Source of the DNA: Candidatus Saccharibacteria bacterium RIFCSPHIGHO2_12_FULL_47_17
Lineage (GTDB): Bacteria > Patescibacteriota > Saccharimonadia > Saccharimonadales > UBA10212
Assembly (NCBI GenBank): GCA_001790575.1
Contig: MGCV01000015.1
Coordinates: forward strand, 1-33,351
DNA length: 33,351 bases
Direction of reading: 5' to 3'
Shown piece after piece: positions 20,158 through 27,542 of this stretch (position 1 is the stretch's first letter; each line of letters begins with the position of its first letter). Under the pieces are notes generated by a model that made no database searches, had not been told where the DNA came from, and saw nothing but the letters and a program-made list of their open reading frames with translations. A program made the translations under genes and the position numbers.

Positions 20158-21690
20158 ATGGGCGAGCACGAAACACTCGTCATCCTAGATTACGGCTCGC
20201 AATACACTCAATTGATTGGCCGGCGGGTGCGAGAACTGGGCGTCTTCAGCGTCATATTGCCTTTCAACAAGCCGCTGGCAGATATCAAAAAACTTAAGCC
20301 CAAAGGGTTAGTGTTATCAGGCGGCCCGAACTCGGTTTATGAAAAGGGTGCGCCGAGCCTCGATAAAAAACTGCTTGAACTGGGAGTGCCGGTACTCGGC
20401 ATCTGTTATGGCCTGCAGTTGTTCGCTCTGAACCTTGGTGGTCAAGTGGCACCGTCCAAACAACGCGAATACGGTCTAGCTAAGCTAAAGCTGAGCGGTA
20501 AAAGCACTTTACTACCAGCCAAAGTTGATGGCAGCCGAATCTGGATGAGCCACGGCGACCATGTGGCCATACCGCCCACGGGATTTAGTGTGACGGCCAA
20601 AAGTGGCGATATAATTTGCGCTGCCGAGAACGCTAAGCGCCAACTTTTTGGCATCCAGTTCCATCCCGAGGTTAGCCATACCGAGCACGGCCGCGACATT
20701 CTCGAATCCTTCTTAAAAACCTGCGGCTTTAGGTTTGACTGGAGCTCAAAATCGTTCATTGAGGAAACGACGGCTAATATTAAACAACTGGTTGGCGACG
20801 CTAATGTCGTCTGTGCCCTGTCTGGCGGTGTTGATTCATCGGTGGCCGCCACCTTGGTAAATCAGGCTATCGGCGACCGCCAAACCTGCATTTTCGTTGA
20901 AACGGGCTTGCTGAGGCGGGGCGAATTTGAAGAAGTACTGGCGATTTATAAGAATGTTGGCTTGAACGTCAAAGCAGTTGATGCCTCGAAGCAATTTCTG
21001 ACGGCCCTCAAGGGTGTTGAGGATCCGGAAGCCAAACGTAAAATCATCGGCCGGGAGTTTATCAAGGTTTTTGAAACCGAGGCGGCCAAGATAAAAGGTG
21101 TTAAATTCCTAGTCCAAGGCACACTTTATCCTGACGTAATTGAATCGGTTTCCGTCCACGGTCCATCGGTAACCATCAAATCGCACCATAACGTCGGTGG
21201 CTTGCCGGAAAAAATGCATCTAAAATTACTGGAACCGCTACGCGACTTGTTTAAAGACGAGGTACGAATTATTGGTAAAGAGCTTGGCCTGCCGGATGTA
21301 ATAACTGGTCGTCAACCCTTCCCCGGTCCCGGCTTGGCCGTGCGGATAATTGGCGAAGTCACGCCGCAAGCACTGGAACTTTTGCGCCAAGCCGATGCTA
21401 TCGTTCGTGAAGAGGTTATCAGTGGTGGAGCTCACAAGCATCTTTGGCAGTACTTTGCCGTGCTTTTACCAATAAAATCGGTCGGCGTGATGGGTGATGG
21501 TCGTACCTATGAGCAAGTCATTGCCATCAGGGCCGTGGAATCAAGCGATGGCATGACGGCCGATTGGGCCAAATTACCACATGAACTTCTCGAAAAAATT
21601 TCATCTCGGATAGTCAGCGAAGTCCGCGGCATCAACCGCGTCGTCTACGACATCACCTCCAAACCCCCCGGCACCATCGAATGGGAATAG
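20158..21690 (+). CDS. guaA: GMP synthase (glutamine-hydrolysing)
   Basis: Converts XMP to GMP with ATP and glutamine. The 510-residue protein has a class I amidotransferase domain with the triad Cys83 (GICYGLQ), His169 and Glu171 ([11 protein letters not shown]). The ATP pyrophosphatase domain carries the PP-loop SGGVDSS at 222-228, and the C-terminal dimerisation domain includes [16 protein letters not shown] and ends KPPGTIEWE. It is full length with all key residues. It starts 4 bp after guaB, giving a two-step IMP-to-GMP operon. Its terminator hairpin appears split by a 159-bp element just downstream. Confidence 0.97.
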
Positions 21691-21696
21691 CCGCTT

Positions 21697-21899
21697 ACCC
21701 TTCTTTCTTCAGACGTTCAGCTTACTTGATGCAGTCACTAGTCAAAGCGTACAACAGCCTGCGGGACTCCCTTCGGTCGGTCTCGCTCTTTATTTCCTTA
21801 AAGGAGTCACTCGACAAAGTCCTCGGCTTAGTAGTTGTCCTTTTGAAGTGGCTGCTCAGGTAGGCTTCTCATTTCTTCAGAAAGAAGGGTTCGCTTTTT
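21697..21899 (+). terminator. guaA terminator split by an inserted element
   Basis: ACCCTTCTTTC (21697-21707) and GAAAGAAGGGT (21880-21890), followed by TCGCTTTTT, would form an 11-bp perfect stem with a TTCA tetraloop if 21713-21880 were removed. TTTCTTCAG is present at both junctions (21704-21712 and 21872-21880), like a 9-bp target duplication. Confidence 0.65.
21713..21871 (+). mobile_element. 159-bp RNA-like element within the guaA terminator
   Basis: The element lies between the two TTTCTTCAG copies. Near its ends, AGCTTACTTGATGCAGTCAC (21719-21738) pairs with GTGGCTGCTCAGGTAGGCT (21848-21866) over 19 bp with one bulge. Three of the pairs are T.G, all compatible with plus-sense RNA. 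Inside are GCGGGAC/GTCTCGC with a TTCG-capped loop, CCT/AGG and GAC/GTC mini-hairpins, and ACAAC/GTTGT. It has no coding capacity I would support. It is either a small mobile element or an ncRNA gene; the wobble pairs suggest that RNA folding matters. Confidence 0.5.
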
Positions 21900-27254: not shown

Positions 27255-27283
27255 AAAAAGCGCCCAAACTTTGGGCGCTTTTT
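27255..27283 (+). terminator. intrinsic terminator of the RRM gene
   Basis: A 13-bp stem AAAAAGCGCCCAA (27255-27267) with TTGGGCGCTTTTT (27271-27283), loop ACT. The flanking A- and T-tracts make it bidirectional. Confidence 0.93.
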
Positions 27284-27315
27284 CATGGTAGCGGGGACAG
27301 GATTTGCCCATCGTA
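27280..27315 (-). repeat. inverted partial copy of the initiator tRNA 3' end
   Basis: The reverse complement of 27280-27296 is CCCCGCTACCATGAAAA, identical over 17 nt to 27499-27515, the end of the initiator tRNA and its downstream bases. The adjoining 27298-27315 is the inverse of 27645-27662 (TACGATGGGCAAATCCTG). It looks like a tRNA 3'-end remnant. Confidence 0.65.
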
Positions 27316-27339
27316 GCAAGCAAAAAGCAAAACTACAGA

Positions 27340-27368
27340 TTGACATTTCCTGCTTAACAGATTAGAAT
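27340..27368 (+). promoter_or_regulatory. promoter of the initiator tRNA
   Basis: Perfect -35 TTGACA (27340-27345), 17-bp spacer, -10 TAGAAT (27363-27368). The 5' flank of the tRNA then folds (CCCC...GGGG and GCGCC/GGCGC hairpins at about 27391-27433). Confidence 0.8.
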
Positions 27369-27434
27369 AATTAGTCGGTCAAATTAATCGCCCCTCGACT
27401 TTGCTCGGGGTGGCTCGCGCCTATCGGCGCTCGC

Positions 27435-27509
27435 CGCGGGGTGGAGCAGTAGTAGCTCGCGTGGCTCATAACCACGAGGTCGGTGGTGCAAATCCACCCC
27501 CCGCTACCA
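27435..27509 (+). tRNA. initiator tRNA-fMet (CAU), atypical loops
   Basis: 75 nt with encoded CCA. Initiator features: unpaired C1 (C1 x U72), the A11-U24 D-stem pair, anticodon loop CTCATAA with G30-C40 and G31-C39. Odd features: the third stem pair 29-41 is U-A rather than G-C. The D-loop is only AGTAGTA, lacking the G18-G19 dinucleotide. The T-loop is TGCAAAT, so position 55 is G instead of U. Both partners of the usual G18-U55 contact are therefore changed. The same GCAAATCC text recurs in the nearby copies, arguing against a read error. Confidence 0.88.
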
Positions 27510-27511
27510 TG

Positions 27512-27542
27512 AAAATCGACTCACATTTGTGGGTCGTTTTTC
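27512..27542 (+). terminator. terminator of the initiator tRNA
   Basis: Stem CGACTCAC (27517-27524) with GTGGGTCG (27529-27536), one T.G pair, loop ATTT, with A-tract and TTTTT flanks. Confidence 0.85.

Follow-up and report, generated by a model that had tools for sequence, protein, structure and literature searches.

A family of small palindromic repeats in Saccharibacteria, one copy of which lies 3' of guaA

The 33,351-nucleotide stretch of Saccharibacterial DNA that we analyzed (the window) carries a 159-bp insert between convergent genes, in the region behind guaA, and the question that it raises is what kind of element this is and what, if anything, it interrupted. The insert is a real feature and the positions first assigned to it are correct (Table 1); no ORF or other protein-coding content was found in it. 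A preliminary description took it for an RNA-like element, perhaps a mobile non-coding RNA, that had split the terminator of guaA. Positions 21697–21890 are instead one copy of a repeat family; we think it likely that they are not an insert within a terminator, and that this family is a non-autonomous, hairpin-forming repetitive DNA (MITE/REPIN/ERIC/RPE-like) of Saccharibacteria whose palindrome is a property of the DNA.

Table 1. Parts of the guaA-proximal element, in window positions.
Feature	Position	Strand	Basis
Left outer arm, pyrimidine-rich	21697..21713	+	Inverted repeat with 21874–21890, 88% complementary
Right outer arm, pairs with left arm	21874..21890	+	Inverted repeat, 88% complementary
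Core palindrome	21721..21864	+	Match to the R1 and R2 covariance models; covariation in 85 copies
Internal loop, 5' strand, GCGGGACTC; family form GCGGAACTC	21761..21769	+	Nearly invariant across the family
Variable apical part, long form	21770..21812	+	Alignments of long and short forms
Internal loop region, 3' strand, GACAAAGTCCTCGG; short forms in the family TCARACAGTCCTCGG	21813..21826	+	Alignments
9-bp direct repeat TTTCTTCAG, left copy	21704..21712	+	Sequence; read as not a target-site duplication
9-bp direct repeat TTTCTTCAG, right copy	21872..21880	+	Sequence

The outer arms include an 11-bp pair in which ACCCTTCTTTC (21697–21707) is complementary to GAAAGAAGGGT (21880–21890), and the core scores 155.5 bits with covariance model R1, in which the window copy is included, and 106.8 bits with R2. 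Elsewhere in the window, a 53-nt imperfect inverted repeat (72%; 27255–27540) spans the tRNA at 27435–27506; a second inverted repeat, I11 (27485–27498/27554–27567), is found at the same tRNA.

The proposal of a small, non-coding, structured element is borne out, and a covariance-model search of its own and related genomes shows it to be dispersed: its own genome (769 kb) has the element at four loci, a model built from 14 copies detects it in 30 of the 198 genomes of Saccharimonadales, and the same locus in a species of the same genus lacks it. The 14-copy model identifies at least 16 copies in G077, and R2 identifies at least 23 in G558, which belongs to another order of the same class; outside the class, R2 has matches in our phylum sample only in G527. 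The version in G558 (L291–L307) is a high-copy one with pyrimidine-rich terminal inverted repeats of ~75 bp, and, as many of its copies sit at the ends of contigs, the real copy number is probably higher. Copies are dispersed within genomes and mostly intergenic; by a rough, ORF-based assignment of 48 copies, the spacers are divergent (1), convergent (11) or between genes in the same direction (17), with 19 lacking a call. Seven loci with copies have no family match in Rfam 15 (E ≤ 1), and no report of such repeats in these phyla was found in the literature searched; the family is apparently undescribed.

Each unit (110–250 bp) is a long imperfect palindrome centered on an asymmetric, nearly invariant internal loop (CGGAACTC/TCARACAGTCCTCG), and the stems around this loop vary in sequence between copies. 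The core has two helices, CTTGATGCAG/CTGCTCAGG and GTCAAAG-ACAACA/TGTTGT-TTTGAC. When long-form and short-form copies are aligned, the apex is seen to range from only 7–8 nt in the short forms (e.g., GCTACGC or GCTTCGC) to a hairpin of 37 nt, unrelated in sequence, on the same loop. Outside the core, some units have a GCCC stem together with a hairpin of the CTACTTTTG..CAAAAGTAG type, and others, including the window copy, have a pair of pyrimidine-rich arms instead; several copies possess an outer CTAC..GTAG hairpin. Copies occur as monomers (175 bp in G009) or, in several genomes, as inverted doublets of ~480–600 bp that have inverted ends and are head-to-head in every case.

That the element landed in the loop of an intrinsic terminator belonging to guaA, generating a 9-bp target-site duplication, is a reading that the window itself invites: deleting 21713–21880 on paper does restore a perfect 11-bp, TTCA-capped hairpin, and TTTCTTCAG does flank the insert on both sides. 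The T-run attributed to this hairpin is also present (21895–21899), but it begins only after TTCGC, that is, 5 nt from the stem, which would leave the restored terminator weak; a terminator scan scored no hairpin at the window site. The interpretation of the repeat as a duplication fares less well, because only the window copy has the 9-bp repeat, other copies with comparable arms lacking it, and the recent paralogues in G009 have no target-site duplication. As for the arms, in five further copies (L004, L009, L010, L011 and L013, representing at least four other loci, since L010 and L011 appear to be orthologues at a single site), arms that are 68–84% identical to the window left arm flank the core at the equivalent place, with a self-complementarity of 72–79% over the compared stretch (79% in the window). 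Arms that differ in sequence and are nonetheless complementary thus recur at other loci, which argues that they belong to the element and not to a host terminator; they thus travel with the element or are regenerated by it. Finally, an uninterrupted strain would be expected to carry ACCCTTCTTTCTTCAGAAAGAAGGGT directly 3' of guaA. In the same-genus species the ruvB-guaB-guaA-...-aspA-ftsH order is kept, but the interval 3' of guaA differs and contains neither the element nor that hairpin, so the anticipated empty site with an intact terminator did not materialize; this comparison is one of presence and absence and not of a base-precise empty site, of which none was found. We consider a split terminator very improbable.

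The window guaA shares 90% identity with that of RIFCSPHIGHO2_12_FULL_47_16b; a strong full-length match to it (window 20158–21690) is found in only 4 of 16 genomes of the taxonomic family (G000, G001, G006 and G009), and the spacer 3' of it varies, with differing small ORFs. Directly 3' of guaA in G006, a long hairpin of similar layout (L266; arms 85% self-complementary) shares the short motif GGAACTCA..TTCAAACA with the family; L266 has no R2 match at E ≤ 1, and we claim similarity in layout, not homology.

With no base-precise empty site, movement is inferred from paralogues and from copies within genes. Two paralogues in G009 match over 175 bp and have unrelated flanks and asymmetric ends. 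In genus g239, the element is located in-frame in the DNA-repair gene recJ, twice in G527 (L320 and L322; G527:C5:51947 and 52724) and also in G674, G695, G697, G702 and G706 (L323–L327); RecJ chains from the PDB, when aligned, have no residues corresponding to it. The palindromes at one recJ site shared by several species have a common 31-nt motif and arms that differ yet are complementary: left arms are 55–85% identical between species, and the arms are 73–89% self-complementary. In G702, the element at this shared site is inverted.

Is the conserved structure that of a transcript or of the DNA? The suggestion that an RNA fold is under selection was correct in that the fold is strong and the covariation massive. 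As RNA, 220 nt of the window folds with z-scores of −6.5 on the plus strand and −4.8 on the minus strand relative to shuffled sequences; as single-stranded DNA, the two strands have z-scores of −4.5 and −4.0. Among 85 copies, 32 of 37 pairs vary on both sides and 567 double-change cells are observed (178 ± 13 in shuffles); slid structures fail. The mismatch counts, however, point to DNA. If a transcript were under selection, G.U should be tolerated and A.C should not; in 58 non-redundant copies, with one column pair set aside (U.G in 45 of the 58), we count 75 G.U and 85 A.C cells, a near-equality that could stem in part from sequence relatedness and imperfect alignment. These similar counts are one reason that we take the palindrome to be maintained as DNA, and they do not agree with the proposal that G.U wobbles reveal selection on a plus-sense RNA. 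Likewise, the wobbles were said to fit the plus sense only, whereas the core takes either orientation at a single recJ site, which also points to a DNA palindrome. The control, 19 tRNAs, gave 25 G.U and 0 A.C, an outcome that the tRNA finder itself favors. A gene, or group of genes, for a structured non-coding RNA that multiplies within the genome under selection on its transcript would account for the fold, stronger on the plus strand, for the covariation and for the single conserved U.G pair in the plus orientation; apart from the pair counts and the two orientations, it has against it the lack of an Rfam family and of a recurrent promoter upstream of the copies that we inspected by eye, and we regard it as improbable. 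The nearly invariant U.G pair may instead be a recognition feature. Some copies could still have a function in transcripts: other palindromic repeats are reported to affect transcript ends or stability (PMC10969869), and by analogy the window element may do so as well.

If the unit is mobile DNA, what moves it? One candidate is the Saccharibacterial Y1 (RAYT/TnpA_REP-like) transposase, with the element as a REPIN proper, that is, a cargo whose folded strand is cut and pasted. RAYT-type Y1 transposases are encoded by 51 of the 198 genomes of the order, and Y1_Tnp is matched in 16 of 30 carriers of the element and in 35 of the 168 genomes lacking it (p 0.0005 by Fisher test, uncorrected for kinship); the inverted doublets, the intergenic location, the absence of target-site duplication and the outer CTAC..GTAG hairpin of several copies are also as such an enzyme would have it. 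However, RAYT-like genes bear other flanking palindromes, no core is found beside 47 Y1/RAYT loci (E ≤ 5; flanks of ~1.2–1.5 kb a side), and several carriers, including the high-copy G558 (84% complete), have no Y1_Tnp match; for these reasons the link between RAYT and the element is a hypothesis, possible but in our estimate unlikely. The match to NCBIfam REP_Tyr_transpos is 41.7 bits, under its cut-off of 80. The RAYT-like genes (~205–230 aa) have the same short palindrome on both flanks, e.g., GCTCCGGGTCGTACCCGGAGC in G000 (loci L224, L228, L229, L237, L241, L244 and L245), and so present REP/RAYT pairs in a phylum of tiny genomes.

Other candidates were rejected. Only 2 of the 8 element genomes searched have a match to RVT_1, for a reverse transcriptase; a tyrosine recombinase gene of Xer size (~305–377 aa) is present in 11 of 11 genomes, mostly as the sole one, and is uninformative. 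With respect to phages, one copy was unmatched in phages and the short motif was unmatched in viral contigs. Copies are isolated and lack the end boxes of integron attC sites (by eye). No parent transposon was seen between or beside the inspected copies: the 7–8 kb between inverted copies in G010 (C34) contain ordinary and restriction-modification-like genes, and none lies between the copies in G051.

The family resembles several known systems without coinciding with any. Like REP/REPIN with RAYT (PMC3116915, PMC6006769), its copies are extragenic palindromes with conserved imperfections that form inverted doublets with a spacer and lack target-site duplication, and many carriers encode RAYT-like Y1 transposases; in contrast, its units are 110–250 bp instead of 20–40 bp, the GTAG-type foot tag is missing (some copies have CTAC/GTAG, but in the outer hairpin alone), conservation centers on an internal loop close to the apex, the palindromes that flank RAYT genes here are not those of the element, and some copies are intragenic. 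ERIC- and MITE-like palindromes (PMC10969869), likened here by description, share the size of ~100–200 bp, the imperfect pairing, the intergenic, non-coding location and a copy number that varies between related genomes; unlike those, the element has arms that vary from copy to copy around a fixed internal loop, and neither a target-site duplication nor, between or beside the copies inspected, a parent transposon was seen. The classical definition of a MITE, terminal inverted repeats plus target-site duplication, does not describe the asymmetric, unduplicated G009 paralogues. The RPE of Rickettsia (PMC10969869) are likewise palindromes in-frame in protein genes, as are the recJ copies (not the window copy), but this likeness is one of description and not of sequence, the phylum is another, and most copies of the element are intergenic.

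For the non-autonomous DNA repeat that we favor, we envisage that the unit would be recognized as folded single-stranded DNA, that a putative trans-acting single-strand DNA enzyme would copy or move it, and that the complementarity of the arms would be kept by selection at the DNA level or by template-switch repair, not by selection on a transcript. A more far-reaching version, which we put forward tentatively and think rather doubtful, is a class of mobile DNA, present in two or more classes of Patescibacteria, that is constrained in sequence mainly at the internal loop, read by a putative single-strand DNA enzyme; the arms would be rewritten at each site, and the palindrome maintained or regenerated by arm-to-arm copying through hairpin-primed or template-switch synthesis.

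The kind of element is known (REPIN/ERIC/RPE-like); this family is apparently new, and dispersed repeats are unexpected in the sub-megabase genomes of Saccharibacteria. The comparison of G.U with A.C, a test of strand asymmetry, indicates that hairpins in DNA can give rise to covariation, which is usually read as evidence of RNA, and a repeat whose internal loop is invariant while its arms vary and stay complementary provides a case in which the upkeep of palindromes in DNA can be tested.
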